NCBI RefSeq assembly: GCF_008831155.1
Contig: NZ_WBKB01000012.1
Span: 1-64,000 of the forward strand
Source: Gulosibacter chungangensis
Lineage (GTDB): Bacteria; Actinomycetota; Actinomycetes; Actinomycetales; Microbacteriaceae
Length of the DNA stretch: 64,000 nt
Reading direction: 5' to 3'
Shown here: positions 33,798-54,820 of the stretch, piece by piece
How the letters are laid out: every line of letters starts with the position of its first letter
How positions within the stretch are numbered: the stretch's first letter is position 1
Translations under genes and position numbers: made by a program
The notes under the pieces: model-generated
What the model was told of the DNA's origin: nothing
The model's input: only the letters and a program-made list of their open reading frames with translations
Databases searched by the model: none

Positions 33798-34964
33798 CTA
33801 CGGCCGAGTAAGCCCGTCGTCGAACTCCTCAAGGCGGCTACCGACGCCCAGTAATTCCGCGATCGCTGCAACCGTTCGTTCTGCAGCGCGGCCGTCGCCA
33901 TACGGGTTTACGGCGTTCGCCATTTTGTCGTATGCAGCTTTGTCGGTAAGAAGTTCGGTGACGTCGTTGAAGATTCGCTCTTCATCGGTCCCGATGAGTC
34001 GAACGGTGCCCGCTTCGACTGCTTCCGGACGTTCGGTGTTTTCGCGCATGACGAGCACGGGCTTACCGAGAGAGGGCGCTTCTTCCTGGACGCCGCCCGA
34101 GTCGGTGAGGACGACGGTTGAGAGGCTCAGTGCGTGAGTGAATTCACCGTATGGCATCGGCTCTGTGACAGTGACGTTCGCCAACCCCTCGAGGTAGGGC
34201 AGCACTGCTTCACGCACGACCGGGTTCCTGTGCGCGGGCAACAGGAACAGCACGTCCGGGTGCGTCTCGGCCAGACGCTTGATCGCACGCCCAACACCGT
34301 GCATCGCGTCACCTTGGTTCTCACGACGGTGCGTGGTGATTACAACGAGCTGGGTTCCCTCAGCGACCTTCTGCGCGATCTCCTGCAGCGCCGGGTCTGT
34401 GAATGGGACGGCGAGCTCAACCACATCAAACAGCGCGTCGATCACAGTGTTACCAGTGACGTAGACGTCGTCTTCTGCAATTGCTTCGCGAAGCAGGTTG
34501 CCGCGGCTCACCGAGGTGGGCGCGAGGTGGAGCGAGCTGATTTGCGACGTCATCTTGCGGTTCGCCTCTTCGGGGAACGGCGAGAAAATATCGAAACTGC
34601 GTAGACCCGCTTCGGCGTGCACGACGGGGATCCCTCGGTAGAACGCCGCGATGCCGCCAGCGGTCGAGGTCGTGGTATCTCCCTGTACGATCACGGCGTC
34701 GGGCTTTTCTGACTCGAGAATTGCGTCGAGGCCAGCAATAGTCTTCGCCATCACCGTGTTCAGCGTCTGACGCGGTTCAATGATGTTGAGGTCGAAGTCT
34801 GGAGTGATACCGAAGAGTTCGTTTACTTGGTCGAGCATCTCACGGTGCTGACCCGTCACGGTCACGACGCATTCAAAATCGGGGGATGCATCCAGCGCCT
34901 TAACGATCGGCGCCATCTTGATGGCCTCGGGTCGCGTGCCGTAGATCGGCATTACTTTCTTCAA
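33798..34964 (-). CDS. wecB: UDP-N-acetylglucosamine 2-epimerase (non-hydrolysing)
   Basis: Interconverts UDP-GlcNAc and UDP-ManNAc. The 388-residue protein begins KKVMPIYGTRPEAIKMAP, the family signature, and has VTGQHREMLDQ, VQGDTTTS, HVEAGLRS-like VHAEAGLRSFD, and DSGGVQEEAPSLGKPVLVMRENTERPEA. The TTG start at 34962-34964 is chosen because AAGGAG is 4 nt upstream; an in-frame ATG four codons later is too far from it. Together with WecC (53555-54820) it would make UDP-ManNAcA. It is the last gene of the long minus-strand operon, after a 191-bp gap. Confidence 0.95.
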   Translation of the reverse strand: MKKVMPIYGTRPEAIKMAPIVKALDASPDFECVVTVTGQHREMLDQVNELFGITPDFDLNIIEPRQTLNTVMAKTIAGLDAILESEKPDAVIVQGDTTTSTAGGIAAFYRGIPVVHAEAGLRSFDIFSPFPEEANRKMTSQISSLHLAPTSVSRGNLLREAIAEDDVYVTGNTVIDALFDVVELAVPFTDPALQEIAQKVAEGTQLVVITTHRRENQGDAMHGVGRAIKRLAETHPDVLFLLPAHRNPVVREAVLPYLEGLANVTVTEPMPYGEFTHALSLSTVVLTDSGGVQEEAPSLGKPVLVMRENTERPEAVEAGTVRLIGTDEERIFNDVTELLTDKAAYDKMANAVNPYGDGRAAERTVAAIAELLGVGSRLEEFDDGLTRP

Positions 34965-35155
34965 GTTACTCCTTGTAAAAATCCACGCGTTACGGAACGC
35001 GTCTGGTCCCGATGAAGACCATTGAGTGCCGACGCGCATGGTTTATCACTTAGGGATGCGCATGCACGACGTATGGCGTCCGGCACGCACATCGCACGGA
35101 ATCAACGGTACCAAGGTAAGGCCACCAAGGTCGGTGCGGCGTCGGATGCGCAGTT

Positions 35156-37000
35156 CTAACGGCGGATCTTGGGAACCCAATCGCCTTCGAGCCACAGGTC
35201 GGCAAGCACGAGTCGCCAAGTCATGAGTTGAAGCCATCGAGGGCTCTTGTCGGACGGCGCCAGACCGCGTGCCGACTTCTCTTGGTATTTTGCGGCTTGT
35301 TCAACGATCCCACGGAACTCGGGTGCAAGGTAGCGGCGCAGTTCCCTCCACCGTGGGCTCGTTGTCACATACCTGGATGCGCTCGAGATCGGCGATGCGA
35401 AAAAGTCACGATCCTTTGCTGCGTCAAATGCCGTGTCGTCGACGGGTCCTGTGTACGGTTCGGGTTTCGCGGTGCGCTCAAGGTAGTGGTCGCCAGAGAT
35501 GCCCTCCAATGGACCAGTCGCTTCGAACCGGAACCGACCGTCGTTAGCAAGCGGAACTTGGAGTGCCTCCGGCCAAATCTCCTGGATCGCGAGGAAGGCC
35601 GTGATCTGCCGCATCCGGTTCATGATCGGCAAAGCGTCCGCGACAGCGGTCACCTGTGAGTCAACGTATGGATAAAGGACTTCAGCCTCGCGGTCGAGCT
35701 GAGTAGCGTGCGGCTGAAGATATCGACTCGAGCGAATATCCCGGCCATACATATAAAGGAGTTCCAGGTTCGTAAAGGCGGGGACACTTGCTGCCCAGTC
35801 TTGAATCGCGCGCTCCGAGTCACGGTTGTGTCGAGGCGATAGCACCGATGCGCTTCGGTCAAGTAGCAGATGCCAAGCCGCTTCAAGTGCATTATTGGCA
35901 GTACGTTCTAGCACACCCTTGAAGAGAGGCCATTGACCAGCTGCGAGAGATTCCCCTACGTTCATTGGGTCTGCAACTGCGTAAGGCGAGACCAGCGCTT
36001 CGGACGGTATCAAGCCCTGTGCCTCACCAATGCTCTGTCTCATTGAGTCGACGAAGCCACTGGGATCGATGAGTTCGGGAGTTTTTACGATCAGTTCGAT
36101 GCCAGCGAGCGCAGCAAGTTGGGCGGCCACCATCACCTCTTCGCTATCGGCACCTCCCTGACACACCGCGGTGATATTCTCGACCGGATGCTCCTTCAGT
36201 AGGCCGAGGAGCAGTCGACTATCGACGCCACCGCTAAGGCGGAGCTGAATCTCGTCTTTTGGCTGCGAGTCGAGCAATCGTGCGGTCGACTCCCTCAGTG
36301 CAGTCACGAGTTCGGCGGTGCCAGTCCGCCGGGGGTCTTCGTTGGATTCCAGAGTCGTTTCGTGTCCCACAGGCGCAGCGATGAGCTGCAGTCGCCCGCT
36401 ACCAATCGACAGCGCAGTCCGTGGTGGCAAGACACGCACCCCGTCGAAGGGAGTACATCCTGAAACAGAGAATCCAAAATTGATGTACTCGAGGAGATAG
36501 TCTCGCGAGGTCCGAATCTGGCGTCGGCTCACCGCAGCCATTGCGATGGCAATCGTGATTGGCCGGTTCGACACGTAGATGAAATCAGCGTCCTGGCCGT
36601 AGTGAATTGCTTCTAGGGTTGGGGCCGTGTTCCACGCCGTGATTCGGTCGGTGCTCTTGTCGCCCTTTATCGCAGCGAACGAGCCGTAGGTGTCGTCACC
36701 ATAACGAATCGTTCCACCAGCCGAATAGACACCGTCGAGAAGTCGCGAAGCAGTTTTCGGCGCTGTGGCAGCTGTCCAGCGACCCTTCTTCACAACGAGT
36801 CCGTCTCGGATACCCGCTGGGTGCCACAGCAGGAGTGACCCACCATTTGTAGTGATATCAACGAACACCTGCGGTTTCTTGGAATATCGTTCTCCAAGAA
36901 ATTGGGGGTATGTTCGCTCAACGGCCTTCGAAGCTACGGTTAGTTTCCGCGCCGAGCGAGCTGTTTTTTCTTTCGGAACGATTGCAAGCAACACTGCCAT
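35156..37000 (-). CDS. Asparagine-synthase-like protein lacking the Cys nucleophile
   Basis: A 614-residue protein related to class B asparagine synthetases. The PP-loop motif SGGVDSR (256-262) marks an ATP pyrophosphatase domain able to adenylate a carboxylate. The N-terminal 200 residues resemble the glutaminase fold (YGQDADFIYVSNRPITIA, GCTPFDGVRVLPPRTALSI) but start MAVLL, with no Cys2, so glutamine hydrolysis is unlikely. In a locus that makes two uronic acids, amidation of a uronate is an attractive but unproven role. Alternatively the protein may modify the polymer in another way. The 5' neighbour ends 69 bp upstream. Confidence 0.75.
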   Translation of the reverse strand: MAVLLAIVPKEKTARSARKLTVASKAVERTYPQFLGERYSKKPQVFVDITTNGGSLLLWHPAGIRDGLVVKKGRWTAATAPKTASRLLDGVYSAGGTIRYGDDTYGSFAAIKGDKSTDRITAWNTAPTLEAIHYGQDADFIYVSNRPITIAIAMAAVSRRQIRTSRDYLLEYINFGFSVSGCTPFDGVRVLPPRTALSIGSGRLQLIAAPVGHETTLESNEDPRRTGTAELVTALRESTARLLDSQPKDEIQLRLSGGVDSRLLLGLLKEHPVENITAVCQGGADSEEVMVAAQLAALAGIELIVKTPELIDPSGFVDSMRQSIGEAQGLIPSEALVSPYAVADPMNVGESLAAGQWPLFKGVLERTANNALEAAWHLLLDRSASVLSPRHNRDSERAIQDWAASVPAFTNLELLYMYGRDIRSSRYLQPHATQLDREAEVLYPYVDSQVTAVADALPIMNRMRQITAFLAIQEIWPEALQVPLANDGRFRFEATGPLEGISGDHYLERTAKPEPYTGPVDDTAFDAAKDRDFFASPISSASRYVTTSPRWRELRRYLAPEFRGIVEQAAKYQEKSARGLAPSDKSPRWLQLMTWRLVLADLWLEGDWVPKIRR

Positions 37001-37069
37001 TTTGCGTTCTCGACTTTCTTGTTGGATTTATGGGTGGCGTGGACGCAATGTGGCCACGCTACCCCGCGA

Positions 37070-39205
37070 TTAGCGTTCGACGATATTGTCGAGGAACTGC
37101 TTGACCTGCTGGACACGCGCCGACCACGACTCCGACTCACGCGCGGCGCTGATGGCGGCTTGGTAATCGGTATTACTCATCCGCTCAAGTGTCTCTACGA
37201 GCGAATCCGTGTCACGCTGTGTAGCTGCACCGACCATGTTGTGTTCAACGAACGCCGCAATGGCCATGTCTGAGTAAGTGATGACCGGGAACCCCTTTTC
37301 GATCATGCTGATCGTCTTGTAGGGGAACGAGAACCGCGCGTATTCACTGTCGAGCAGCACTGCGCCGATTGTCAGTTCCGAAGACGGTAGGTACACGTCG
37401 AGTGAGTTCGTAGATACAGAGACTCGAGGGTGTTCTGCTAGCCCAAACGACGCCAATTCTTCGAGTAACTGCTCGGTCTCACCGGGCCGCACAACGAAAT
37501 CTACGAAGAATTCGTTTTCGACGAGCGTCTGCATGGCGGTGAGCAAATTAGTCATCGCGTACACGGCGCCGACTCCACCGGCATACAGCAGCGTTGGACC
37601 GTTTCGCTTGTCACGGAGCGTCCCCGACTCCAGCACGTTCTCCGGCGCCACGCCCGGCGGTAGCGCAACCCAAGGCGTGGACGGTGCATCATGCCCGGCG
37701 AGCAATCGCTTGAAGCCTTCGACTGACGCTGGATCGGGCGCAAGCAGGAGGTCTGCAGCTCCTCCGACGTGGTTAAGTTCGTGCAGTCCGTTTGCGATGA
37801 TCCCGTCAGTGCCGTCGGCCGCTTGAGCGATACCGGCCTTCGGGTCGAGCCAATGCAGGTCACGCACAAACCACGCGCTCCGTCCGCCTGCCTCACGCCA
37901 TTTCCGCAAGAAGTCACCGAGTTCCTCACGGATATCTGCAGAAGGAATCGGCGAGGTTGAGTTTTCACCGTAGAAGATCTCTGCTTTCCGTCCAGCAGAG
38001 ATCAGGTCAAGTACGAAATCACGCCGACGTCGGAAGCCATTGACGTTCGAGGCAATTCGAACCGTTGGCGTATCCGAGTCAAGGGCCTCCGCCATGTTTC
38101 GGATTCGCTGAGGTCGAGCCCCGTCCGTTCGATCTTCTAGACCTGTCGTCGAGAAGAACACGTTGAACGGACCTTCATTCTCAGTAACGTTGAGCTGCTC
38201 AAAGCTACTTGGGTATTGCTGTTCTACGAGGTTCCGAAGAACCGCAATGGGTTCCCCTGTCTCGACGATTCGGGCGGACCGTTCCTGCTTCAAGGATCCC
38301 GTCAATACGTCATCCAATAGCTTGGCTAGGCGTGAACCTCGACCGAGTTGTTTGAACCCGATCTGACGGCCCCATCGAGAAAGTCCAATTGTATCTTCAG
38401 CAATGAGCCGGTCGCCCTGCGTTGTGTCAACCAAATAGGCGCCCAGTGACGATGCGTGCTTTGAAGAGCCAACCAGCACCATGTGCGTCGCGTGTTCGAG
38501 TCGCTGTACTGCGGTTTCGTGGAATGAACGATTCCGTGTCAAGTCACGTGCACGGAACAACGCATCGGCCGCGATGGTATTGACTGACGCACCGTGTTTC
38601 GCGGCCACTGCATTGAACATCTGCTCGTAAGCCTCGATACGTTCACCGTTGCTACCTTCGGGATAGACGACAGCAATCCGCGCTGTGGCCGCACCTTCAG
38701 TGAGAAGTTTCGGCAATCCCTCAAATGAGAACTGTGGATGCAGCAGGTGAGCACTCTGAGAGCCCTTGGACAGAGCCTTGTCGAACTCGTAATCGTCTTC
38801 GAGGAAAAGCACTTCGGCGCCACTCGTGAGGTCGCCAAACCGACGCGAGAAAATTGCGCGGGAACGACTGAAATCCAGGTCCTCGCGCCAAAGCAGTGGA
38901 ATAAATGGAAGCGAAATATGCCGTTTAGCGATGCCGTTGGCGGAAAGACCAGACGCCATTACGACATCGTGTCCTCCAACGTCAATGACCTGATTGAAGT
39001 AGGAAGCAATCTGATTGCCAAACTTCTGCAACGTCACCGAGGTGATCCAGTTCGCTGGTTTCGCAAATTTCCGTCGTGCCGAGGTCGTGAGCCAAGCCAA
39101 ATGGCTCAGGCTTAAGACGTCCACTTCGTGGCCATGTCGTTGCAGTCGTTCGCACCATAGGACTTCAGCAGGGCCCATCGATGAGGAAAGGAACAGTACT
39201 TTCAA
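37070..39205 (-). CDS. Large two-module glycosyltransferase-like protein
   Basis: A 711-residue protein with two GT-B-like halves. The first (1-330) opens MKVLFLSSSMGPAEVLWCERLQ, a typical N-terminal Rossmann start. The second (about 348-711) has PQRIRNMAEALDSDTPTVRI and, late, LLYAGGVGAVYAMTNLL and PYKTISMIEKGFPVITYSDMAIAAFV, resembling the donor-binding part of GT4 enzymes. The usual EX7E motif is not obvious, so activity of either half is uncertain. The start is TTG (39203-39205) with GAGGAG upstream. Codon and base use look less GC-rich than in the housekeeping genes. It follows the next glycosyltransferase gene by 16 bp. Confidence 0.75.
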   Translation of the reverse strand: MKVLFLSSSMGPAEVLWCERLQRHGHEVDVLSLSHLAWLTTSARRKFAKPANWITSVTLQKFGNQIASYFNQVIDVGGHDVVMASGLSANGIAKRHISLPFIPLLWREDLDFSRSRAIFSRRFGDLTSGAEVLFLEDDYEFDKALSKGSQSAHLLHPQFSFEGLPKLLTEGAATARIAVVYPEGSNGERIEAYEQMFNAVAAKHGASVNTIAADALFRARDLTRNRSFHETAVQRLEHATHMVLVGSSKHASSLGAYLVDTTQGDRLIAEDTIGLSRWGRQIGFKQLGRGSRLAKLLDDVLTGSLKQERSARIVETGEPIAVLRNLVEQQYPSSFEQLNVTENEGPFNVFFSTTGLEDRTDGARPQRIRNMAEALDSDTPTVRIASNVNGFRRRRDFVLDLISAGRKAEIFYGENSTSPIPSADIREELGDFLRKWREAGGRSAWFVRDLHWLDPKAGIAQAADGTDGIIANGLHELNHVGGAADLLLAPDPASVEGFKRLLAGHDAPSTPWVALPPGVAPENVLESGTLRDKRNGPTLLYAGGVGAVYAMTNLLTAMQTLVENEFFVDFVVRPGETEQLLEELASFGLAEHPRVSVSTNSLDVYLPSSELTIGAVLLDSEYARFSFPYKTISMIEKGFPVITYSDMAIAAFVEHNMVGAATQRDTDSLVETLERMSNTDYQAAISAARESESWSARVQQVKQFLDNIVER

Positions 39206-39221
39206 GATCTCTCCTCGAGTC

Positions 39222-40799
39222 TCAGTTAGTATCTGCCAGCGGCAGACCCATCATGACCATTTCTTTCGCTACTGTCTGCCGGGGCCCACTCTGGCTAGCA
39301 ACCCTTTCGGACGCCAGACGGGACATCTTTTGGAACCGTTCCGCGCTCTTGAACAGCGCAATCATTCCAGCGACCATTCCTTCGACGTCTTCGGGGCCAG
39401 CGAGGACCGCTACCTCGTCGTTGACAAATTCTGGGACGGCCGCGACAGCGTTCGTGATTGGGACGAGGCCGCTCGCCATCGCTTCATCGCGAGATACGCC
39501 TTGCGTGTCCAGTCGTGTAGGTACAAGGAAGATGCCGTACTCGCGATGCAGACGGGCTATCTCCGTTTGGTTGATGAAACCACGGTTGATGTGCACGTTC
39601 GCATCTTCGGCAAACGTCGATTCGAATTCCCCGAAGTATCGTCCGTCGCCCACAATCTTGACGTCAAGCTTCGACCAATATGGAGTCTCGCGAAGAGCCT
39701 TAAGCACACGGACGGCAATGTCGCTGCCGTAGTTGAAATTATTCGCCGTGCGCACCCACAGGATCTTAAAGCGCTGGTCGGCAGACTTCGGCATGTACCG
39801 GAACAGACTCGTATCAACCAGGTTGTGGATGACTTCAGTTTTGCTCGTCGGGATTGTTAGTTCGAGGTCTTCTTGCGCAGCATTTCGCCACCATTGAGAA
39901 ACGAAGACATACTTCACGGGTCCGTTTGGGTGAGCGAGAACGCGGCGCCAGAATTGTTGTCGTCGCAGCGACGTAGCGAGCTCTCGCTCAAGCGCATCAC
40001 TGCTGCGGTAGTTGTGCAGTGACCGCACCCACCGACGGGCTTCAAACCCGTGGATATAGCAGTACAGGCGTTGCCCATCAAGATAGGGCGCCATCTTCTG
40101 CCACAAGTACTCACTCATAAAGTGAGTGCTCACACTCTCGTATTCATGACGCTGGAGCAGAGCGGCGAGTTCCTGCCCTTGCCCAGCTATAACGGTCACG
40201 CCGTCGTACTCGAATATTTCCGACGTTGCATTTCGGGAGACCACCGCGACGTGAACCTCAGCCCCGCCTTCCTGATATAGCTTCACACGGCGGTGCACGA
40301 AGCCGTTACCGTATTCAGCACCCTCTCGCGGATACACCTCGACGACAACAAGATGCCGAACCGTGGAACCGGCCGAAGGCGAGAAGGAATCAAGATACTG
40401 CTGCGCGAGTATCAGGGATTCCTCGCTGCTTTCTTCAACATCTCTTTCTGCGTCGAAGCCGTGTTGTTCCGACATTTGGAAGTAGAGTTGCTTCAGGTAC
40501 GACAACTCATACTGCAAAAACGTCGAGATTTGCGCTTCCGAGTATGTAGAACCGGCTGCCTGCAACGGGACCATGTGGCCGTTACTGATCGCTTCGCCAA
40601 TGAGTGGTGCGTTCTGCGGCGGTGCCGCTGCGACGGAACGAAGAGTGTTCGTCAGCTTGTTCTGAGGAAGTGCCTTGACCTTGTCTTTGGCGAAGCTCTT
40701 CATTCCGTCTGGAAGACGTCGTCCTAGGGCTGCAGCCGCTTTAGCAGTCTTCGTCCCTGCGACGCGGAGTCCAGCGTTGATCCGGTTCTTGATTGACAT
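39222..40799 (-). CDS. Glycosyltransferase, GT4-like
   Basis: A 525-residue predicted retaining glycosyltransferase. A strongly basic, helical N-terminus of about 50 residues (many K/R) probably tethers it to the membrane surface. The GT-B body has HLVVVEVYPREGAEYGNGFVHRR in the acceptor half and KILWVRTANNFNYGSDIAVRVLKAL, IVGDGRYFGEFE and DEAMASGLVPITNAVAAVPEFV in the donor half. The last segment is the glutamate-containing nucleotide-sugar binding loop (EAMASG). Sugar specificity cannot be read. It lies 34 bp downstream of the Gfo/Idh/MocA gene in the long operon. Confidence 0.83.
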   Translation of the reverse strand: MSIKNRINAGLRVAGTKTAKAAAALGRRLPDGMKSFAKDKVKALPQNKLTNTLRSVAAAPPQNAPLIGEAISNGHMVPLQAAGSTYSEAQISTFLQYELSYLKQLYFQMSEQHGFDAERDVEESSEESLILAQQYLDSFSPSAGSTVRHLVVVEVYPREGAEYGNGFVHRRVKLYQEGGAEVHVAVVSRNATSEIFEYDGVTVIAGQGQELAALLQRHEYESVSTHFMSEYLWQKMAPYLDGQRLYCYIHGFEARRWVRSLHNYRSSDALERELATSLRRQQFWRRVLAHPNGPVKYVFVSQWWRNAAQEDLELTIPTSKTEVIHNLVDTSLFRYMPKSADQRFKILWVRTANNFNYGSDIAVRVLKALRETPYWSKLDVKIVGDGRYFGEFESTFAEDANVHINRGFINQTEIARLHREYGIFLVPTRLDTQGVSRDEAMASGLVPITNAVAAVPEFVNDEVAVLAGPEDVEGMVAGMIALFKSAERFQKMSRLASERVASQSGPRQTVAKEMVMMGLPLADTN

Positions 40800-40833
40800 T
40801 CTCTTCTCGGTGATCCTGACCCGGGTTCAGCGG

Positions 40834-41817
40834 TCAGAGCTCGATTTCGTGGCCAACCGAGGCGGATTCGATCATGGCTTCTGCGACACGTAATGTGTTC
40901 AGGCCTTCCGCCATGGAGACGTACTCACTCGGCTTGCCCAGGATCGCGTCGCGCCACGCTTCGTGCTCGGTCTTCAACGGTTCTTGCTTCTCAAACGCGT
41001 ACCGGAAGGCGTCACCTTCCGTGACGCCACGGAAGTTCTCCACCGGCTGCCACGTACTCCGAACCGTCCCGTTCTCGAAGAACCGCAAATCTGCCGTCAA
41101 TGTGTCGGCAACAAACACTCCATTTTCACCGGTCACCACCGTGGAACGTTCCTTCACCGCTGACAACCAATTCACGGTGTGATTCACAATCACACCATTC
41201 TCCAACCGACCAACCGCGAGCACCATATCCTCATACGCACGGCCGGCAACCTTCACGGTCTCCGCACTAATCCGGGCATACGACGAACGCGTCAACCAAG
41301 CGGTCAAATCAATATCATGCGTGGCCAGATCCTTCACCACACCAACATCCGCGATCCGCGCCGGAAACGGACCCTCACGCCGCGTCGACACCTGATACAC
41401 CTGACCCAGCTGACCGTCATCTAGCCGACGACGAAGCTCCTGCAACGCCGGATTAAACCGCTCAATATGCCCAACCGCACCAATCAAGCCCACCTCGGCG
41501 AACGCGCCAGCGAGCCGCTCACCCGCCTGGACGTTTTCGGCGATCGGTTTCTCTACCATCGCGTGCACGCCAGCCTCGGCAAGCTTTAGTCCGACTTCTT
41601 CATGCATCCCGGTCGGCACCGCGCACATCACGGCGTCCACACCATGCTCGATCAGCTGATCCACGGTCTCGAACAGCGGCAGGTCGCCCGCGACGCCGTG
41701 CTTGTCCCCCATCGGGTCAGCAACCGCCACCAGCTCCATACCCTCGATGGACCGCATCACCCGGGCATGGTGGCGACCCATCATGCCCAGGCCAATCAAA
41801 CCAGTACGAATCGTCAC
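40834..41817 (-). CDS. Gfo/Idh/MocA oxidoreductase (WbpB/WlbA-like)
   Basis: Predicted to oxidise UDP-GlcNAcA at C3 to the 3-keto sugar, the step before transamination. The 327-residue protein has the Rossmann motif GLIGLGMMGRHHARV (about 6-20) and EKPIA with the family's catalytic lysine (about residue 96). It starts with GTG (41815-41817), and its Shine-Dalgarno GGAGG lies inside the end of the aminotransferase gene, 3 bp upstream. The order dehydrogenase, acetyltransferase, aminotransferase, oxidoreductase in this operon is what suggests the WbpB role. Confidence 0.88.
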   Translation of the reverse strand: MTIRTGLIGLGMMGRHHARVMRSIEGMELVAVADPMGDKHGVAGDLPLFETVDQLIEHGVDAVMCAVPTGMHEEVGLKLAEAGVHAMVEKPIAENVQAGERLAGAFAEVGLIGAVGHIERFNPALQELRRRLDDGQLGQVYQVSTRREGPFPARIADVGVVKDLATHDIDLTAWLTRSSYARISAETVKVAGRAYEDMVLAVGRLENGVIVNHTVNWLSAVKERSTVVTGENGVFVADTLTADLRFFENGTVRSTWQPVENFRGVTEGDAFRYAFEKQEPLKTEHEAWRDAILGKPSEYVSMAEGLNTLRVAEAMIESASVGHEIEL

Positions 41818-41820
41818 GGC

Positions 41821-42918: not shown

Positions 42919-42931
42919 CTAACGACCTTCC

Positions 42932-43534
42932 TTATGCAATGGCGGCAAGACTGCCGTCAGTCTCTACAAAACGTTCCTGCGTGTCGGGGCACTCCCACAC
43001 CCCGTCCACCTCGACCAGACGGTGGCCGGTCTTCCCGACCCACCCGATCTGCTTCGCCGGAACACCCACCATCAGCGCGTGGTCCGGCACATCTTTCGTC
43101 ACGACCGAACCCGCCGCGATCAGCGCCCACGCACCGATCGTCACGGGTGCAACGCACACCGAACGCGCGCCGATGGCGGCACCACGCTTGATTGTCACGC
43201 CCACCGCGTCCCAGTCCGAAGCCGACTTCTGGGTGCCGTCCGGGTTGATCGCGCGCGGGTAAGTGTCGTTGGTGAGTACCACGGCCGGGCCGATGAAGAC
43301 ACCGTCTTCGAGCACTGCGGGCTCGTACACGAGCGCGTAGTTCTGCACCTTGCAGTTATCGCCAAGGCTCACGCCGGTACCGATATAGGCGCCACGACCG
43401 ATCACGCAGTTCTCCCCCAGCACGGCGTCTTCGCGCACCTGCGCGAGGTGCCATACCGACGAGCCCGCACCGATCTGTGCGGCATCTGCGACATCGGCGC
43501 TGTCGACGATGCGCACGTTCGAACGCTCGCCCAT
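42932..43534 (-). CDS. Hexapeptide-repeat N-acetyltransferase (WbpD-like)
   Basis: Predicted to acetylate the 3-amino group of UDP-GlcNAc(3NH2)A. The 200-residue protein is built of left-handed beta-helix hexapeptide repeats (for example IGAGSSVWHLAQVREDAVLGENCVIGRGAYIGTG in the first half) with a C-terminal hairpin. It resembles WbpD and PglD-type trimeric acetyltransferases. Its ATG overlaps the dehydrogenase stop by one base (TAATG). A short C-terminal extension (WECPDTQERFVETDG) resembles a cysteine-containing end seen in WbpD relatives. Confidence 0.9.
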   Translation of the reverse strand: MGERSNVRIVDSADVADAAQIGAGSSVWHLAQVREDAVLGENCVIGRGAYIGTGVSLGDNCKVQNYALVYEPAVLEDGVFIGPAVVLTNDTYPRAINPDGTQKSASDWDAVGVTIKRGAAIGARSVCVAPVTIGAWALIAAGSVVTKDVPDHALMVGVPAKQIGWVGKTGHRLVEVDGVWECPDTQERFVETDGSLAAIA

Positions 43535-47179: not shown

Positions 47180-47937
47180 GCCGCCACCTCCAGGTTGCGA
47201 ATAATCTCCACGATTCCGGCGGGTGCCTCACCCGGGTTTTCAGTGAAGTGCAGCTGTTCTGCGCTGGGCAGGCCTGGAACGAGCACATTCACGAGGTCTG
47301 ATCCCTCGAGCAAAATTGCACCGTGGTGGTGCAACTGTTCACCACGCATAACGAGCCAGCAGGTGACACCGCGAGCGCGCGCGGTTTCAAGCGCGGCATA
47401 CACTTCGCGGATCAATCCGATCCCACTCGGGTCGAGCGCGCCGTCCCACACCCCGGTGAATCCGGCAATGTCGAGGACGACGACTTCAGCCTGCTTCGCG
47501 AGGGCCGAAGAGATTCCCGGCACGAAAGGATGCACGCTGTGACCGGCTTCTACGAGCGCTGCTCTGAGGTCCGGCGCGAACACACCGGCAATGGGCCGAC
47601 CTCCTGCAGCCGTGCGTTCTGGCACGGTGCGCCCGAACATCGCGCGGTGGAGTCGCTCCGCGGCGTGCTCATCAATCACCGTCCCGGCGGCAGCACGACC
47701 TGTGACGTTTTTGGCCGCACCCTTCCCGAGACGATTCGGGATGCCCTCGGCGAGCCCGAGGTGGTCGAGCGGATACTTCGCTTGCGCGACTCGCTTCTTC
47801 GGGCGACCGATGGCCTGTTGCACGGGTGCGGGCAGCTGCTGCACGACGCGCTTGCCCGAAGTCTTAATCTTCTTACGCATCGGTTTCGGCACGAGCTTGC
47901 CAGCGCGCTTGATCGCCTTGGTCACAAAATTCGGCAT
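47176..47937 (-). CDS. Basic, glycosyltransferase-like N-domain protein of unknown function
   Basis: A 253-residue protein. The first about 60 residues are very basic (KAIKRAGKLVPKPMRKKIKTSGKRV) and probably amphipathic and membrane-associated. The rest resembles a single Rossmann domain (PDLRAALVEAGHSVHPF, EVVVLDIAGFTGVWDGAL, GVTCWLVMRGEQLHHHGAIL) like the acceptor half of a GT-B enzyme, with no donor half. It overlaps the bimodular glycosyltransferase start by 4 bp (ATGA), suggesting the two products work together. It could be a regulatory or acceptor-binding subunit; I do not recognise a family. Confidence 0.7.
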   Translation of the reverse strand: MPNFVTKAIKRAGKLVPKPMRKKIKTSGKRVVQQLPAPVQQAIGRPKKRVAQAKYPLDHLGLAEGIPNRLGKGAAKNVTGRAAAGTVIDEHAAERLHRAMFGRTVPERTAAGGRPIAGVFAPDLRAALVEAGHSVHPFVPGISSALAKQAEVVVLDIAGFTGVWDGALDPSGIGLIREVYAALETARARGVTCWLVMRGEQLHHHGAILLEGSDLVNVLVPGLPSAEQLHFTENPGEAPAGIVEIIRNLEVAA

Positions 47938-47997
47938 GGGTGCCCTCGCGGTTGATCGAAAGTGTGGTCGTGGTGTTCGGCTCAGATGGTCTTCGGC

Positions 47998-49776
47998 CTA
48001 ACCGACCAGACGTTCATAGACATTCTCATATGTGGCTGCGTTCGCCGCCCACGTGCGCGTCGAAAGGGCCCACTCGCGCCCGTTCTCGCCCATTTCGGCA
48101 GCGCGCTCGGGATCGTCAAGCAATCCTCGCAGCGTCTGGGCGAGCGCGTGCTCGTCTTCAGCGGCAAATAGCGCGCCGGTCTCGCCGTCGACGACGAGTT
48201 CTTCGAGCGCGGGCAGGCGTGATGCGACAACTGGTCGACCAACTGCGGAGGCTTCGACAGTCTTCATCGGCGTAACCGAGCGAGTCACCGTGAGGTCCTT
48301 GCGCGGCACGACGAAGACGTCGAGAGCCGCGTGATTGAAGATCGCTTCGGAACGCGCCACGCGCCCCGGGAAGTCACAGCGGTCGGCGATGCCGAGCTGT
48401 TCGGCCAAGACCTTGAGCCCCGGCAGCGCGACACCGTCGCCCGCGATCCTGGCCCGTAGCTGAGGGTATTCCGGAGCCAAGAGCGCGACCGCACGGATAA
48501 GCAGATCGAGTCCCTCGTAGTCGACGATGCTCGAGACGGTGCCGACGAGCTGCAGTTCGTCGTCGAGGCCGAGCTTGGCCCGCGCATCCTTCTTCGTCGG
48601 CGGCTCGTCGATAAACGGCGACCCGACAGCGTTCGGGCACACCGAGATCTTCGCTTCGTCGACGCCACCGGCTACGAGCTGACGCTTCATGTTTTCGCCA
48701 AGGGTGACCACGGCATCCGCTGCCAAGGCTGCGTCGAGCTCGCGTGCCGAAAACTCCAGGTAGCGCTGCGACTCAAGGGCCTTGAGGCCGCGCGTAGAGG
48801 CCCAGGTATCGGCCAGCTGCCCGCGCACCTCATACACCCAGGGAATGCCGAAGGCTCGCGCGACCGCGCCAACCGCGAGCGCATTCGTGAAGTGCGTCGT
48901 CGTGTGCAAGATGGCAGGACGGAACTTTCGGACTTCCTCAGCGAGGAGCGCGGCCTGCTGATCGGCACGCTCACGAAGGCCCTGCCCGAGGCGAGCGGGA
49001 AGCAGCCGCACGTAGCGGATGCCGTCGATCTCGTCTTCACCCGCGGCCCATGCAACACCCACTTGCACGGGATACCCCGGACGAGTCACCGCTTCCACCT
49101 CATACCCGTGCTCAACGAGCGACTTCAAGATCGAGTGGCTGCGCTGGGCGTATCCGCTCGAAGTGTGGGGCAGCGAGTTCGTGAGCACGTGCATGACCCG
49201 GCCCTTCACCGGCGAGTACCCGACCTTGGCAGGAAGTTCCGGCACGTAACCTGCGAACACCGCTTGCTCGCCAAGCATTCGTTGCGCCAAGTGTGCGTTT
49301 CGGGGGTGACGGCTCGCGAACTCCACAGCCCCGTCGTGGTCGCCGCGGTAGAGCGCTATTCGAGCGGCCACTGCGAACCAGGATGCGCGACGGGCTTCAG
49401 CAGGAACGCTTTCGATCAGTGCTTCCGCACGGTCGGCGTCGCCGAGTGAGAGCGCGACGTCTGCGAGGTGGGCGAGTTTGTTGGCGGAGCGCTTGGTCGA
49501 AAAGTCTGCGTCGGCGAGCGACGCATCCGCCACTGCGCTGTCAATCGACCGCTCGGCGTTCGCTCGCTCGCCGGCGGCTTCAAATCCAATCGCCGCGACT
49601 GAGGGAAAGCGCTCCCCAGCCAACTTCGCGACGGTGTTCCCGAGCGCTCCGCGCGACCCCGCCGGAAGCCGGCGCGACACCTGCAGTGCAAGCTGCACGG
49701 GGTCGTCAACGATGTGCTCGGTGACGGTCTGCCCCGTGAGCGAAATATTCTGCCACCACGGTCGATTGAGTTTCAT
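47998..49776 (-). CDS. Glycosyltransferase family 4 with helical repeat N-terminus
   Basis: A 592-residue protein. The first about 200 residues are helical and repeat-like (LADVALSLGDADRAEALIES, RIALYRGDHDGAVEFASR), suggesting TPR-type interaction. The remainder is a canonical GT4: HTSSGYAQRSHSILKSLVEHGYEVEAV, VCPNAVGSPFI, the donor loop KTVEASAVGRPVVASRLPALEELV with the conserved glutamate, and DGETGALF. The ATG at 49776 is preferred to one 12 codons earlier because GAGAAGG is well placed. This is the first gene of the eleven-gene minus-strand operon and is divergent from the heparinase-like gene (208-bp gap). Confidence 0.9.
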   Translation of the reverse strand: MKLNRPWWQNISLTGQTVTEHIVDDPVQLALQVSRRLPAGSRGALGNTVAKLAGERFPSVAAIGFEAAGERANAERSIDSAVADASLADADFSTKRSANKLAHLADVALSLGDADRAEALIESVPAEARRASWFAVAARIALYRGDHDGAVEFASRHPRNAHLAQRMLGEQAVFAGYVPELPAKVGYSPVKGRVMHVLTNSLPHTSSGYAQRSHSILKSLVEHGYEVEAVTRPGYPVQVGVAWAAGEDEIDGIRYVRLLPARLGQGLRERADQQAALLAEEVRKFRPAILHTTTHFTNALAVGAVARAFGIPWVYEVRGQLADTWASTRGLKALESQRYLEFSARELDAALAADAVVTLGENMKRQLVAGGVDEAKISVCPNAVGSPFIDEPPTKKDARAKLGLDDELQLVGTVSSIVDYEGLDLLIRAVALLAPEYPQLRARIAGDGVALPGLKVLAEQLGIADRCDFPGRVARSEAIFNHAALDVFVVPRKDLTVTRSVTPMKTVEASAVGRPVVASRLPALEELVVDGETGALFAAEDEHALAQTLRGLLDDPERAAEMGENGREWALSTRTWAANAATYENVYERLVG

Positions 49777-49984
49777 TGCTACCTTCTCGACGGTGTCGTC
49801 ACGCCGCCGCACGTCTCAAGTTTTGGCGCATCAGATGCACGCCGAGTTTCAAGCTCAACAGTTGATTATCGCGTACTCGCCCCGCGATTCCGATTCACCT
49901 CACCCGTGACCCTTGGAATCTCCAGGTAGCCACCGTAGTAGTGTCCGGTGAGACAGCTTTCGATTCTCGCAAGGAGCATTCGTC

Positions 49985-51652
49985 TTGAGCCGATCCGAAA
50001 CGCGCAAGAACCTTCGCCGGGGGCACATCACGGTTCCCGAGAAGTATCAGGTTGCGCCTATCGCGTGGCGGGACGGGCTCGACTACGAGGAACTCAACAA
50101 GGGTTCAGAATCATTCAAGTGGTGGCTATCCTGTCTCGGGTTCCTGCGGGTGTTTGCGAATGCTGACCAGCTCAGCGAAGACGATGAGGAAGTCTGTCTA
50201 GCAATCATCAGTGACTGGTTTGCGCATAACCCGCAGACCTCGCCCGCAATCTCGCGGGCCTGGGACGCTCATGCCGTTGCCTACCGTACCGACTCGCTTA
50301 TTGATATTGCCGAACGCGTGTCGAACAGCACGTGGCTCGATGAGTTACTCGAAGAGCACAAGGCCTTCCTCGCACTCGAAGACAACTTCCAAGGCAATTG
50401 GAACCACGGCGTCGACCAGGCCAAGTCACTCATCAACGTCGCCGAGCGGCTGAAGGATGCATCTGCCCAACAGATCGGGCTCACACGACTCGAAGGCGCG
50501 ATGCTCAGCATCGTGGACGACGAGGGCGTCACGATCGAACAGGCCGTGCACTACGACTATTTCAACTACCAGCAGCTCGATAAGTGCATTTCCTATCTCG
50601 ACGGCCATCCCGGGGCAGAGAACACGATTGCAAGATTGCGCGAGCGGATGCAGAAAATGCCCGACTTCCTCGCCCACGCAACCCGACCGGACGGCACGTG
50701 GTTCGAAATCGGTGACACCCCGATCGAACCGGCCGGTTCGATTCCAGGGACGATCGCAGAATACGCAGCTACACAGGGGGCGAACGGACCACGCCCCGAC
50801 GAGACGGTGAGGACCTTCTCGGCTGGGTACATTTTCGGTCGTTCCGGATGGGGTGAGTCGCGCGAGTTTGCCGAAGAGTCGGCCTACTCAATCCGGTTTG
50901 GGCCGGGCAGGCTCATCCACGGCCACGCCGACAACCTTTCGCTGCGATTCGTTTCGCGAGGCATAGAGATCATCAAGGACGGCGGCTTCCACGGCTACAC
51001 CGACGATGAGAACCGCGCCTTTCTACGCTCCCAGGCCGCGCACAGCACGATCATTGCGAGCCGCGGCCGCAAGAAGTCCACAACGAAGCCAAGCGAGTTG
51101 ACGTTCTCACGCATCGAACCGCAGTGGCAGTCATTCACGATCAATGCGAACCCTTTCGAGCACACCTACGTCACGCGCTCGATCTACATCGAATTTGACC
51201 CGGACATCGTGGTGGTATGGGATCGCCTGCGCAGCCGTTCACGTACGCCCTTCGAACAGCGTTGGATCATCAACCCCGAGTTCCGGCTCACCCAGCGTCG
51301 CGATGCCGTCACTGGCATAGGCCCAACGCCATTCGTTGCGACGCAGCACCTGCGCGTGCCATTCCGAGGACAGAGCAGTGGCGTGATCAACGCCAACGAG
51401 ACGGATGCTCCGCTCGGCGCTACAGAGACACTCATTGAGCTCACGCGAAACGGACTGATCCAGCACAAGCAAACCGGTCTCACCGGTGAGTTCCTCACGG
51501 TGTTTGAGTTCGGGACAGAAGAGCCGAACGTGCGATTCACGTCACGACGCACGGGTCTCGCGGCCGCGTCGAGGCACCTAGTCGGTGTGCGGCAGGCCTC
51601 ATTCCTCGATCTGGACGGTAATACTGGGTTGGTGCCCCGCTCAGCGAAATAG
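49985..51652 (+). CDS. Heparinase II/III-like protein
   Basis: A 555-residue protein with the heparinase II/III layout: an N-terminal (alpha/alpha) toroid (about 30-290) and a C-terminal beta-sandwich beginning around the motif FGPGRLIHGHADNLSLRF. HGHAD is the conserved catalytic and metal-binding region of these polysaccharide lyases. No signal peptide is visible, so it would act in the cytoplasm or is exported unusually. In biosynthetic clusters such proteins may trim or edit uronic-acid polymers. The TTG start (49985) follows AAGGAG. The gene is on the opposite strand to the main operon and is followed by a glycosyltransferase 30 bp downstream. Confidence 0.85.
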   Translation: MSRSETRKNLRRGHITVPEKYQVAPIAWRDGLDYEELNKGSESFKWWLSCLGFLRVFANADQLSEDDEEVCLAIISDWFAHNPQTSPAISRAWDAHAVAYRTDSLIDIAERVSNSTWLDELLEEHKAFLALEDNFQGNWNHGVDQAKSLINVAERLKDASAQQIGLTRLEGAMLSIVDDEGVTIEQAVHYDYFNYQQLDKCISYLDGHPGAENTIARLRERMQKMPDFLAHATRPDGTWFEIGDTPIEPAGSIPGTIAEYAATQGANGPRPDETVRTFSAGYIFGRSGWGESREFAEESAYSIRFGPGRLIHGHADNLSLRFVSRGIEIIKDGGFHGYTDDENRAFLRSQAAHSTIIASRGRKKSTTKPSELTFSRIEPQWQSFTINANPFEHTYVTRSIYIEFDPDIVVVWDRLRSRSRTPFEQRWIINPEFRLTQRRDAVTGIGPTPFVATQHLRVPFRGQSSGVINANETDAPLGATETLIELTRNGLIQHKQTGLTGEFLTVFEFGTEEPNVRFTSRRTGLAAASRHLVGVRQASFLDLDGNTGLVPRSAK

Positions 51653-51682
51653 CGCTGACACTCAATCAGTTTCGGAGGCGAG

Positions 51683-53548
51683 TTGCAGATCCCCTATCTC
51701 CCGCGGCTCATTCGCGGGGTAAAGACCAGAGTTCAGCGATACACGCGAAAAGCACAAGCCGGTACTCAGCGCGCTATCTATCGTGCGATGCAGCGCGGCG
51801 ACCTGAACTCGCGTGTTCCTGAGCGATATTGGCCGCGCGAGTTCGAAGCTGCGCCCCCAAGTGACCCGCTTCGTTCCTTCCTCCCACTCCCCCCAGCCCC
51901 CGGGCTTACGGAGTGGTTCTTTGGGAGTTCGACCCGCTCGAACGATGCCGGGGCACGCACACTGAACTGTCTCCTCGTACGCGTCGACACCGAAACCACT
52001 GCTGAGTCGTTTTCGGTGAACACGCTGCCTCAGTTACTTGAGAGCCGTAAGGCCCTGACACAGCCGCTGCACACGATCATCATTGGTTCTGACGAGGCAG
52101 CAATGGCGGCGAAAGGAATGCTCGCGGCAGCGCAGATTCGCTCGGGCGTTTCGGTGTTTGCGATGCCGAGCCCTACTCGCTTGAACGCGCTGTTTAGTCT
52201 TGCGGCAGCGATGGTCATCCCTGCTTCCACGACCGCTGATCCCATCCGCAAGATCAGCGACGTTACCTCGACGATCTTCCGGGCGCGCGCATCCGGTGTG
52301 CCGATCGCCGAATGGCGCCCCGATGTCCCGCTCCCCCGCGATCCGCTCGACGCGGCCTCACCGGTGAAGGCCCCACGGCACAGCATCCTGCCGTCAGGCG
52401 CTCCGGCTCAACGCCTCATATCTCTGCGCGTTGCCAGCCAGGCTGCGCGCTACGAAGCGCTTTCGGCAATCGTCGAGGTCGACACCTACCAGCCCACCGT
52501 GTGGACTGAGCCGCGCGCCACAATCGGCAAACCGCTCGCCGAACCGAACCGCCCTCAAAAAATCGTCGTCGCGGGCCACGACATGAAATTCGCGCACCCA
52601 GCGGTTGCCGAACTGCGCGCGCAAGGCCACGAGGTCCGGTTCGACGAATGGTCGGGGCACGCGCGCCATGATGAGGCCCGTAGCCGGGAGTTGCTTCGCT
52701 GGGGCGATGTCGTCTGGTGCGAGTGGGCGCTTGGCAATGTCGCTTGGTACTCGCGCAACGTGGACAGTTTGACGCGGCTCGTGACGCGCCTGCACCTGCA
52801 GGAGCTCTCGACGGCCTTCCCTTCGACGGTCCGGTGGGAAAAGGTGGATGCCACGATCGCCATCGCCGACCACGTGCGCCGTCAGCTCTTGCGCGACACG
52901 AATGCGCCCGAGGACCGCACGGTGGTGATCCCCAATATGGTGCATGTGCCGGATGCGCTGCCCCAGCGACACGACGTCGCACGCTTCCGCCTCGGGCTCG
53001 TCGGAATGGTCCCGGCCCGCAAGGGACTTCGCGAGGCGCTCGACCTCCTTGTCGCACTCAGAAGCATCGACGATCGGTATACGCTATCGCTCCGTGGCAA
53101 GCGGCCAGAGGAATACCCATGGATGGCCGAACGTGGTGAGGAATCAAAGTACTTCGCCACACAGCTCGAGCGAATCGAGACAGACCCACGACTTCGCGGA
53201 GCCGTCGAGTTCTCACCGTTCGGTCCAGACATGGCCGAGTGGTATGCCGGGGTCGGTGTCGTGCTGTCAACGAGTGAGTTCGAGTCGTTCCACTTCACTG
53301 CTCCCGATGGCGCTGTCAACGGGGCTCTCCCGATGCTGCTCAACTGGGCCGGCGCAGACCTCCTCTACCCCGCCTCATGGCTCCACCCGAATGTTGAGCA
53401 CATGGCCGCGGCAATACTCAAAGCGACAGCGGATGCCCACGTCTGGCGACAGCGCGCCGTCGCGGCTCGCGAATTCATCGCGGAAAATTATGCCGAGGAT
53501 CGCGTTGTTCGGAGCCTCACGAACACGATCCTCGGCAGAACAGAGTGA
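51683..53548 (+). CDS. GT4-like glycosyltransferase with divergent N-terminal half
   Basis: A 621-residue protein. A basic N-terminus (RLIRGVKTRVQRYTRK) precedes a poorly conserved half (to about 285). The second half (about 290-621) is a GT-B module closely related to module two of the bimodular enzyme at 44963-47179. Shared stretches include VVAGHDMKFA, WGDVVWCEWALGNVAWYS, FRLGLVGMVP and FSPFGPDMAEWYAG. The donor loop is STSEFESFHFTAPDGAVNGALPMLL, where the second glutamate of EX7E is replaced (PDGAVNG). The TTG start (51683) follows CGGAGG. It ends 6 bp from the convergent wecC. Confidence 0.82.
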   Translation: MQIPYLPRLIRGVKTRVQRYTRKAQAGTQRAIYRAMQRGDLNSRVPERYWPREFEAAPPSDPLRSFLPLPPAPGLTEWFFGSSTRSNDAGARTLNCLLVRVDTETTAESFSVNTLPQLLESRKALTQPLHTIIIGSDEAAMAAKGMLAAAQIRSGVSVFAMPSPTRLNALFSLAAAMVIPASTTADPIRKISDVTSTIFRARASGVPIAEWRPDVPLPRDPLDAASPVKAPRHSILPSGAPAQRLISLRVASQAARYEALSAIVEVDTYQPTVWTEPRATIGKPLAEPNRPQKIVVAGHDMKFAHPAVAELRAQGHEVRFDEWSGHARHDEARSRELLRWGDVVWCEWALGNVAWYSRNVDSLTRLVTRLHLQELSTAFPSTVRWEKVDATIAIADHVRRQLLRDTNAPEDRTVVIPNMVHVPDALPQRHDVARFRLGLVGMVPARKGLREALDLLVALRSIDDRYTLSLRGKRPEEYPWMAERGEESKYFATQLERIETDPRLRGAVEFSPFGPDMAEWYAGVGVVLSTSEFESFHFTAPDGAVNGALPMLLNWAGADLLYPASWLHPNVEHMAAAILKATADAHVWRQRAVAAREFIAENYAEDRVVRSLTNTILGRTE

Positions 53549-53554
53549 TTCTGG

Positions 53555-54820
53555 CTAGCGCCACACACCCTTGGTGTCGACAATGACCTTCTCATTCAGC
53601 AGATCACGGTCAATGTTCTTGAACTGGTCGTGGTCGACGAGCAGCAACACGATGTCGGCCTCGCGAATCGCGCCCTCCAGGTCCTGCTTCGTGATGTTGG
53701 CGTGACGAGTCAGCTGCTCCGGAAGGGCTTCCACGTTGGGTTCGACGACGCGCACGTCGACGTCCTTCACGTGATCGGCGAGCTGGTCAACGATGTTGAG
53801 CGATGGTGATTCGCGGAGGTCGTCAATGTTCGCTTTGAAGGCGATACCGAGTGCCGCGACGACCGGAGCCTTAAAGCGCTGCGCGAGTGCCTCCACTTTG
53901 TCGAGGACGTGGACGGGCTTGCCGTCGTTGACCTCGCGGGCAGTGCGGATGAGTCGCGCCTCGTCGGGTGCCGCGCTCACAATGAACCACGGGTCGACCG
54001 CGATGCAGTGACCACCCACGCCGGGGCCCGGCTGCAGGATGTTCACACGTGGGTGGTGGTTCGCCAGCTCAATGAGCTCCCAAACGTCAATGCCGAGGCG
54101 TTCGGCAATGATCGAGAGTTCGTTCGCGAATGCGATGTTGACGTCGCGGAAGGAGTTCTCCGTGAGCTTCGCCATTTCGGCGGTCTTCGCATCCGTCAGC
54201 AGGAGTTCACCGTTGCAGAAGGTTGCGTAGAGGTCACGGGCGAGTTCCGCAGCGCGAGGTGTGACACCACCGATAACTCGGTCGTTCTCCGACATTTCGG
54301 CCATGATCCGGCCTGGGAGTACCCGCTCAGGGCAATGTGCGAAATGTACCGTGTTTCCCTTGCCCTCGTCGAGAGTAAGGTCAGGCCGCTCGGCGAGGAT
54401 GAGTTCCGCAAGCTTCTCGGTCGTCCCAGGAGGGGAAGTCGACTCGAGGACGATGAGTTCGCCGCCTTTGAGCTGCTCGGCGATCTTCGAGCCCGCGGCC
54501 TGGATGTACTTGGTGTCGACCTCGTAGTTGTCTTTAAACGGTGTCGGCACCGCAACGATGTAGGCATCCGCGTGTGGCGTCGCGGTCTGCGCAATAAGCT
54601 GACCGTTCGCGACGACCCCCGACAGTAGTTCGCCAAAGTCAGGTTCGTAGAACGGAACCTTGCCAGCGTTGATGCGCTCGACGAAAGATTCGTTGAGGTC
54701 GACACCAATGACCTTCGAACCGTGCGCAGCAATGAATGCGGCGGTCGGCAATCCGATGTAGCCAAGACCGATGACGGAGACCGTCTCGAATACCGCCTTG
54801 GGCTGTGCGGATGTCGTCAT
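53555..54820 (-). CDS. wecC: UDP-N-acetyl-D-mannosamine dehydrogenase
   Basis: Oxidises UDP-ManNAc to UDP-ManNAcA. The 421-residue protein begins FETVSVIGLGYIGLPTAAFIA, the WecC signature with intact glycine motif. It has VPTPFKDNYEVDTKYIQAA, the FAHCPERVLPG segment, the active-site cysteine in GPGVGGHCIAVDPWFIV and a C-terminal NAD-binding domain (ALGIAFKANIDDLRESPS). With wecB at 33798-34964 it gives a complete two-step route to ManNAcA. It is transcribed away from the last glycosyltransferase gene with a 94-bp gap. Confidence 0.96.
   Translation of the reverse strand: MTTSAQPKAVFETVSVIGLGYIGLPTAAFIAAHGSKVIGVDLNESFVERINAGKVPFYEPDFGELLSGVVANGQLIAQTATPHADAYIVAVPTPFKDNYEVDTKYIQAAGSKIAEQLKGGELIVLESTSPPGTTEKLAELILAERPDLTLDEGKGNTVHFAHCPERVLPGRIMAEMSENDRVIGGVTPRAAELARDLYATFCNGELLLTDAKTAEMAKLTENSFRDVNIAFANELSIIAERLGIDVWELIELANHHPRVNILQPGPGVGGHCIAVDPWFIVSAAPDEARLIRTAREVNDGKPVHVLDKVEALAQRFKAPVVAALGIAFKANIDDLRESPSLNIVDQLADHVKDVDVRVVEPNVEALPEQLTRHANITKQDLEGAIREADIVLLLVDHDQFKNIDRDLLNEKVIVDTKGVWR

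Follow-up and report, generated by a model that had tools for sequence, protein, structure and literature searches.

A Putative Teichuronic-Acid-Type Locus with Two Uronate Gene Sets in Gulosibacter chungangensis

Gene Content of the Cluster

The window analysed here is a stretch of 64,000 nucleotides (contig NZ_WBKB01000012.1, positions 1 to 64,000) from Gulosibacter chungangensis, a member of the Microbacteriaceae (order Micrococcales) with a genome of 3.24 Mb in 21 contigs and a completeness of 99.71. Between positions 31845 and 56156 it holds a putative wall-polymer cluster in which predicted gene sets for two amino-uronic acids, N-acetylmannosaminuronic acid (ManNAcA) and a 2,3-diacetamido uronate, stand together with glycosyltransferase (GT) genes and an exporter, the make-up of a teichuronic acid locus in a Gram-positive organism. 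This locus is genuine and forms a coherent whole, and it has been conserved in a small number of Micrococcales. A first-pass annotation of the range 33798-54820 had placed wecB and wecC, a WbpA-D-E-B-like quartet, a TagGH-type exporter and six GT genes in one cluster, and profile and Protein Data Bank (PDB) searches recovered all of them, every named gene as a full-length open reading frame (ORF); the exporter genes and the GT at 54915 fall beyond that range.

The exporter consists of a tagG/wzm-type ATP-binding cassette permease (31845-32837, plus strand; PF01061 31.7 bits with a cut-off of 26.9, NF050109 47 bits, below its cut-off of 380) and a tagH/wzt-type ATPase (32821-33729, plus strand), which reached 190 and 174 bits with the teichoic acid export models NF010065 and NF010066, below their cut-offs of 538 and 320. 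It is followed on the minus strand by wecB (33798-35039), the predicted UDP-N-acetylglucosamine (UDP-GlcNAc) 2-epimerase, with 461 bits to TIGR00236 (cut-off 210). Towards the other end of the cluster, wecC (53555-54820, minus strand), predicted to encode the UDP-N-acetylmannosamine (UDP-ManNAc) 6-dehydrogenase, exceeds the corresponding equivalog model NF008286 (578 versus 459 bits) and carries GGHC at residue 269.

The quartet forms one minus-strand operon in the order A-D-E-B, with gaps of -1, 13 and 3 bp. It comprises a wbpA-like UDP-sugar 6-dehydrogenase with a TTG start (43534-44841; TIGR03026 310 bits, cut-off 190; GGHC at residue 270), a wbpD/wlbB-like N-acetyltransferase (42932-43534; 139 bits to PDB 3mqg, next best 87), a wbpE-like DegT 3-aminotransferase (41821-42918; PF01041 416 bits) and a wbpB-like Gfo/Idh/MocA UDP-sugar 3-dehydrogenase (40834-41817; NF040723 209 bits, below its cut-off of 450). 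The best PDB match of the aminotransferase is another sugar transaminase, 2oga (262 bits), with the chains named WbpE at 225-228 bits. We take 3mqg to be WlbB, and presumably GGHC in the two 6-dehydrogenases and PTKN, which the aminotransferase contains, are catalytic motifs.

Four of the six GTs exceed Pfam cut-offs. A GT4-like protein of 525 residues (aa; 39222-40799, minus strand) scored 46 bits with PF13692, another of 604 aa (47998-49812, minus strand) 105 bits with PF00534 and 258 with TIGR04063, below the cut-off of 442, and a WcaI-like one of 413 aa (54915-56156, minus strand) 59 bits with PF13579 and 104 with NF007640, below the cut-off of 276. The 738-aa GT4-like protein (44963-47179, minus strand), in which PF13692 and PF13439 exceed their cut-offs in the C half and PF13524 falls just below in the N half, is perhaps composed of two GT halves. 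Its gene overlaps by 4 bp that of a conserved 253-aa protein (47176-47937, minus strand), homologues of which (37-45%) occur in four Micrococcaceae clusters. The 621-aa GT4-like protein (51683-53548, plus strand, TTG start) stays below the cut-offs of PF13439 and PF13692 (18.6 and 17.3 bits); it resembles homologues of the 738-aa GT at 38-41% and has homologues of its own in the Micrococcaceae clusters. The 711-aa protein (37070-39205, minus strand, TTG start) has no Pfam match and was classed as a GT-B enzyme from its predicted structure (AlphaFold2 with an alignment of five Micrococcaceae homologues; mean predicted local distance difference test score, pLDDT, 74.6). In Foldseek searches against the PDB, its best matches were the GT-B enzymes sucrose-phosphate synthase, MshA, SdgB and BshA, with PimA lower. 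The query-normalised TM-scores of the best 50 matches were 0.25-0.37, low because almost none of the matched chains is as long as the protein, and since a 2-epimerase is also among them, the fold alone is no proof that the protein is a transferase.

The Epimerase

The Wbp pathway ends with WbpI, an epimerase of solved structure that yields the manno form of the diacetamido uronate, ManNAc3NAcA (PMC10622841). As judged from sequence comparison, the window epimerase belongs to the WecB class instead: beyond exceeding TIGR00236, its nearest PDB chains are WecB/MnaA, the nine closest at 370-404 bits and most others at 300-358, versus 145-148 bits for the solved UDP-GlcNAc3NAcA 2-epimerases (WbpI). 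The remoter chains 4neq and 4hwg, named UDP-GlcNAc 2-epimerase, scored 197 and 118 bits. An Arthrobacter WbpI candidate (L037) gave the mirror image, with 343-346 bits to solved WbpI, 272 to 4neq and 110-138 to WecB/MnaA.

Additionally, columns at least 90% fixed for differing residues in WecB-type versus WbpI-type sequences were compared. The window epimerase carries the WecB residue in 32 of 32 such columns and the WbpI residue in none (10 WecB-type and 45 WbpI-type sequences), and in 30 of 30 and none when the WecB-type L131 and L138 are left out (8 and 45 sequences), in a test of consistency and not an independent one, since the classes were assigned by best BLAST match and thus seeded by similarity. 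The solved WbpI has the WbpI residue at 25 of the 30 and 27 of the 32 columns. Neither WbpI-type residues nor a closest match to 8sxv/8sxy was found for the window epimerase, which is the sole Epimerase_2 gene product of its genome.

Distribution and Related Loci

In an even draw of 199 Microbacteriaceae genomes, the 6-dehydrogenase (E <= 1e-60) was detected in 39 and the WbpI type (>= 417 bits) in 21, all of which lie within the 39 (hypergeometric 5e-18, with relatedness ignored). Two more of the 39, the window genome and G121, have an epimerase of WecB-like score only, and the remaining 16 gave no match to the WbpI query (E 1e-5), some of the 39 genomes being incomplete; therefore, a gluco end product (GlcNAc3NAcA) is plausible and common. 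A simple sequence rule is suggested, by which ManNAc3NAcA is predicted where WbpI accompanies the quartet and GlcNAc3NAcA where it does not. WecC (E <= 1e-100) was found in 8 of the 199 genomes, each of which encodes an epimerase that scores like WecB against the WbpI query (127-155 bits), and the epimerases of six other WecC genomes, that of G174 not among them, are 56-60% identical to the window WecB. The two genes lie at most 20 kb apart in five of the seven other WecC genomes and on different contigs in the remaining two. Across the class, the 6-dehydrogenase (E <= 1e-120) occurs in 55 of 296 genomes.

A scan of species genomes with the aminotransferase returned at least 79 loci; exclusion of the non-actinobacterial and weakly similar L094-L100 left 72 loci, each compared over 10 kb either side. 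Among these 72 listed actinobacterial loci, 50 hold the dehydrogenase with D, E and B, and 33 hold D, E and B with WbpI. Homologues of the 711-aa and 525-aa GTs occur in five of them, from Micrococcus sp. EYE_212, Micrococcus S28M_Sa_42, Citricoccus zhacaiensis, Zhihengliuella RM56 and Zhihengliuella salsuginis, and all five genomes encode WecB (596-629 bits) and WecC (482-553 bits). In Micrococcus sp. EYE_212 and C. zhacaiensis, wecB, wecC, the quartet, tagGH and homologous GTs lie in one cluster. This recurrence of the same set bears out the first-pass proposal that a single cluster, linked to an exporter, encodes two distinct routes to uronates and, at the level of gene content, establishes that the dual set is conserved. 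In Zhihengliuella RM56, wecC lies within the cluster and wecB on a separate contig; in Z. salsuginis, the two are divergently oriented with 0.4 kb between them, on a contig other than that of the quartet; and in Micrococcus S28M_Sa_42, short contigs carry wecB, wecC and the quartet. In Arthrobacter sp. ATA002, wecB and wecC stand apart from the D-E-B genes. Micrococcus EYE_212 has an additional epimerase that belongs to neither type, being 39% identical to WbpI and 30% to WecB.

As a separate observation, a polysaccharide pyruvyl transferase-like ORF (PF04230; L114, 2474-3781) adjoins the Citricoccus cluster.

Two Additional Genes

Two genes absent from the first-pass annotation are specific to this window among the loci compared. 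The first (35156-37000, minus strand) encodes a 614-aa asparagine-synthase-like protein with an SGGVDSR loop at position 256, no cysteine at position 2 and a PF00733 score of 18.9 bits, below the cut-off of 21. Among 295 other genomes of the class, 7 gave matches to it (E <= 1e-8), at 24-28% identity; these distant homologues have the loop S/T-GGxD-S/T-R, and all five that were scanned pass PF00733. No homologue of the 614-aa protein was found among the 72 listed loci, and in three Micrococcaceae clusters the corresponding position is occupied by a GT-domain ORF of 846-923 aa. PDB searches with the protein and one distant homologue returned no matches, and its single-sequence AlphaFold model had a pLDDT of 33.7. 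In the 20-kb surroundings of five of the seven distant homologues, no quartet, wecB or wecC homologue above 55 bits was found. Because of the known chemistry of the asparagine-synthase family, it is possible, as a guess, that the protein is an amide ligase acting on uronates; no paper on uronate amidation of the asparagine-synthetase type was found in the literature search.

The second gene (49985-51652, plus strand) encodes a heparinase II/III-like protein (PF07940 58 bits) and is divergently placed inside the biosynthetic cluster. The protein keeps HGHAD at residue 312 and weakly matches PDB Uly1040 (E 0.0024), which we take to be an ulvan lyase; no signal peptide was apparent in its first residues on inspection without a predictor. 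Homologues were absent from the 72 listed loci, and 31% homologues lie near the dehydrogenase-WbpI locus of L164.

Mosaic Composition and Genomic Site

By best match, tagG, tagH, wecC and the 413-aa GT are nearest to Microbacteriaceae, and wecB (75 versus 59%), wbpB, wbpE, the 253-aa gene and five GTs to Micrococcaceae, both comparison sets being samples. The 6-dehydrogenase is slightly nearer to Micrococcaceae (82 versus 79%) and wbpD slightly nearer to Microbacteriaceae (77 versus 75%). The cluster splits a housekeeping string, with DUF3180 and fol genes (28652-31620) on one side and the bPH_2 pair, panC and a class II tRNA synthetase gene, probably lysS, (57409-59949) on the other. The congener G100 has, within this string, a cluster of wecB, wecC and tagGH that lacks the quartet and lies on the opposite side of the bPH_2 pair, and in G006 the string is unbroken. 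Taken together, the mosaic best matches and the arrangements in G100 and G006 suggest that a ManNAcA locus already present may have had its inner block exchanged.

Elsewhere in the window, a 1062-aa ORF with a lamin-tail domain lies at 6341-9529, opposite a 1001-aa ORF without matches, and a Choice-of-anchor L/Big_9 protein, weakly similar to an LAETG-anchored family, is encoded at 60044-61393.

Predicted Polymer and Alternative Explanations

The best explanation, to which a probability of about 0.6 is given, is a teichuronic-acid-type locus that places ManNAcA and gluco GlcNAc3NAcA in one exported, wall-bound polymer. From the gene set we infer the enzyme activities and the order of oxidation: WecB would convert UDP-GlcNAc to UDP-ManNAc, which WecC would then oxidise to UDP-ManNAcA, and the 6-dehydrogenase, 3-dehydrogenase, aminotransferase and acetyltransferase would convert UDP-GlcNAc to UDP-2,3-diacetamido-2,3-dideoxy-glucuronic acid, which, as WbpI is not encoded, would keep its gluco configuration. 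The six GTs would form the linkages of a chain holding both residues on a lipid carrier, the TagGH-type transporter would export this chain, and an LCP ligase encoded elsewhere would join it to peptidoglycan. Three LCP genes, outside the locus, and two PF00953 genes are present in the genome.

Several observations weigh against this explanation. At the level of the family, WecC and the quartet dehydrogenase occur together in only one of the eight WecC genomes, that of the window, against an expectation of 1.6 (P = 0.51 for one or none); therefore, no association of the two pathways is visible in Microbacteriaceae. The 6-dehydrogenase lies below every substrate-specific profile cut-off. The 3-dehydrogenase is closer to 7bvj (96 bits) and to NF040723, an archaeal model for UDP-GlcNAc 3-dehydrogenase, than to 3q2k (65 bits), and may therefore act first on UDP-GlcNAc; we take 3q2k to be WlbA and 7bvj to be GnnA, the PDB record of the latter saying only 'Oxidoreductase, NAD-binding'. 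Regarding the epimerase, 4neq, despite its name, is nearer to the WbpI type (272 versus 197 bits), so that chain names and subfamilies are imperfectly matched. Citricoccus zhacaiensis has a second locus (L179, 7188-16001) with a WbpI (57% identity), an aminotransferase, a 3-dehydrogenase and a 6-dehydrogenase whose alignment is broken into three pieces, and therefore the manno form is also possible in Citricoccus. Finally, two further nucleotide-sugar dehydrogenases are encoded elsewhere in the G. chungangensis genome, one of them about 6 kb from an LCP gene (contig C1, 54523-61491); this region is perhaps a second wall-glycan locus, and thus another wall glycan may use the ligases.

Among the alternatives, the one that survives best, with a modest chance of being correct, holds that two polymers are made, namely a ManNAcA teichuronic acid and a separate GlcNAc3NAcA chain, attached for instance to teichoic acid as in Streptomyces antibioticus. 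The pathways are indeed separable, as the congener G100, with tagGH, wecB and wecC in the same housekeeping string without the quartet dehydrogenase, and the distant placing of wecB/wecC and D-E-B in Z. salsuginis and Arthrobacter sp. ATA002 indicate, and six GTs suffice for two repeats. However, there is a single exporter pair, and the compact locus is conserved as one in Micrococcus and Citricoccus.

A polysaccharide that is released or forms a capsule, in place of a wall-bound teichuronic acid, would be compatible with the same precursors but is an improbable product. The permease also resembles KpsM/Wzm-type exporters and the locus lacks a ligase gene, but the related Streptomyces and Micrococcus polymers are wall polymers (PMC13274773, PMC3005890). 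The LCP genes elsewhere in the genome likewise speak for wall attachment.

A neutral sugar as the product of D-E-B is a slender prospect. The GnnA/GnnB route leads to neutral UDP-GlcNAc3NAc, and in a similar manner the three enzymes could supply this sugar, with the 6-dehydrogenase forming another uronate such as UDP-GlcNAcA; the proximity of the 3-dehydrogenase to 7bvj and NF040723 fits such a route. On the other hand, the 6-dehydrogenase accompanies D, E and B in 50 of the 72 actinobacterial loci, and of 20 regions (20 kb each) taken from the 38 other Microbacteriaceae genomes that bear the dehydrogenase, 16 include one or more of D, E and B, two of these being cut at an edge, and 9 include all three. 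Moreover, the acetyltransferase is nearest to 3mqg, and Streptomyces with a like predicted gene set are described as making GlcNAc3NAcA (PMC13274773).

The first-pass annotation had also offered that WecB might take the WbpI role, and this option, in which it would act as WbpI or as both enzymes to give ManNAc3NAcA, is very unlikely on sequence grounds: in its favour, the genome has a single Epimerase_2 gene, and the WecB and WbpI types are homologues at 36% identity, but the scores of 145-148 bits to WbpI versus up to 404 to WecB/MnaA, the 32 of 32 WecB-type columns, the presence of WecC and the frequency of quartet genomes without any epimerase match all contradict it. As a candidate, it was rejected on the PDB scores, the discriminating columns, the family co-occurrence and the single Epimerase_2 gene.

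Relation to Known Polymers

The explanation by one polymer with both uronates draws on chemistry already known in parts. Structures proven by nuclear magnetic resonance in 2025 comprise a ManNAc3NAcA-GalNAc polymer of Streptomyces griseus, for which the authors predict Wbp-like genes, and a GlcNAc3NAcA homopolymer of S. antibioticus, both on teichoic acid (PMC13274773). The window resembles this Streptomyces Utr locus in its predicted Wbp-like dehydrogenase, aminotransferase, oxidase and acetyltransferase for a Gram-positive wall polymer, the gluco form being known there; unlike it, as compared by description, the Streptomyces polymer sits on teichoic acid, and the portions of the paper drawn on mention no WecB, WecC or ManNAcA (PMC13274773). 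With the teichuronic acid of Micrococcus luteus, a ManNAcA-Glc polymer, it shares a ManNAcA-based wall polymer in Micrococcales, whereas that repeat, as given in the excerpt consulted, has no diacetamido uronate (PMC3005890). In Cutibacterium acnes, a diacetamido uronate is likewise part of an actinobacterial wall and matrix polysaccharide (2019), there as two ManNAc3NAcA per five-residue repeat and, in the portion used, without ManNAcA (PMC6598116). The enzyme set A-B-E-D is that of the Wbp (Wlb) pathways of Pseudomonas, Bordetella and Thermus, which, unlike the window genome, include WbpI (PMC10622841).

The closest likeness in sugars, by glycan structure and not by genes, is the Methanococcus voltae N-glycan ManNAcA6Thr-GlcNAc3NAcA-GlcNAc, in which the same two uronates are adjacent and ManNAcA bears threonine at position 6, but which is described as an archaeal protein glycan and not a repeat polymer (PMC2952790). 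It is a long shot that the window encodes an independent bacterial counterpart of this ManNAcA6Thr-GlcNAc3NAcA, that is, a repeat with ManNAcA beside gluco GlcNAc3NAcA in which the asparagine-synthase-like enzyme would amide-cap some carboxylates and the heparinase-like lyase would trim the chain.

Biological Meaning

The pathway assignment of the first-pass annotation was largely right; its description of the polymer as unusual, and of the diacetamido uronate as best known from Gram-negative O antigens, was overstated in view of the sugars reported in Streptomyces (PMC13274773) and C. acnes (PMC6598116). These polymers rule out that the diacetamido sugar is peculiar to Gram-negative bacteria or archaea. 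No bacterial wall polymer combining ManNAcA with GlcNAc3NAcA was found among the papers listed in the literature searches, which is weak evidence of absence given the poor coverage of subscription journals. What is new is that the two pathways are paired in a conserved Micrococcales locus, that this locus is a mosaic, and that the window adds two extras of its own, the asparagine-synthase-like and heparinase-II/III-like genes. Since both sugars are known separately in related bacteria, the locus represents an informative new combination and not a new kind of system.

The actinobacterial wall polymers described in the cited papers contain either ManNAcA or a diacetamido uronate, and from the conserved dual locus a polymer of distinct chemistry is therefore predicted. 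Umbrella toxins use such polymers as receptors in Streptomyces (PMC13274773), and, speculatively, swaps of the inner block might alter target recognition.

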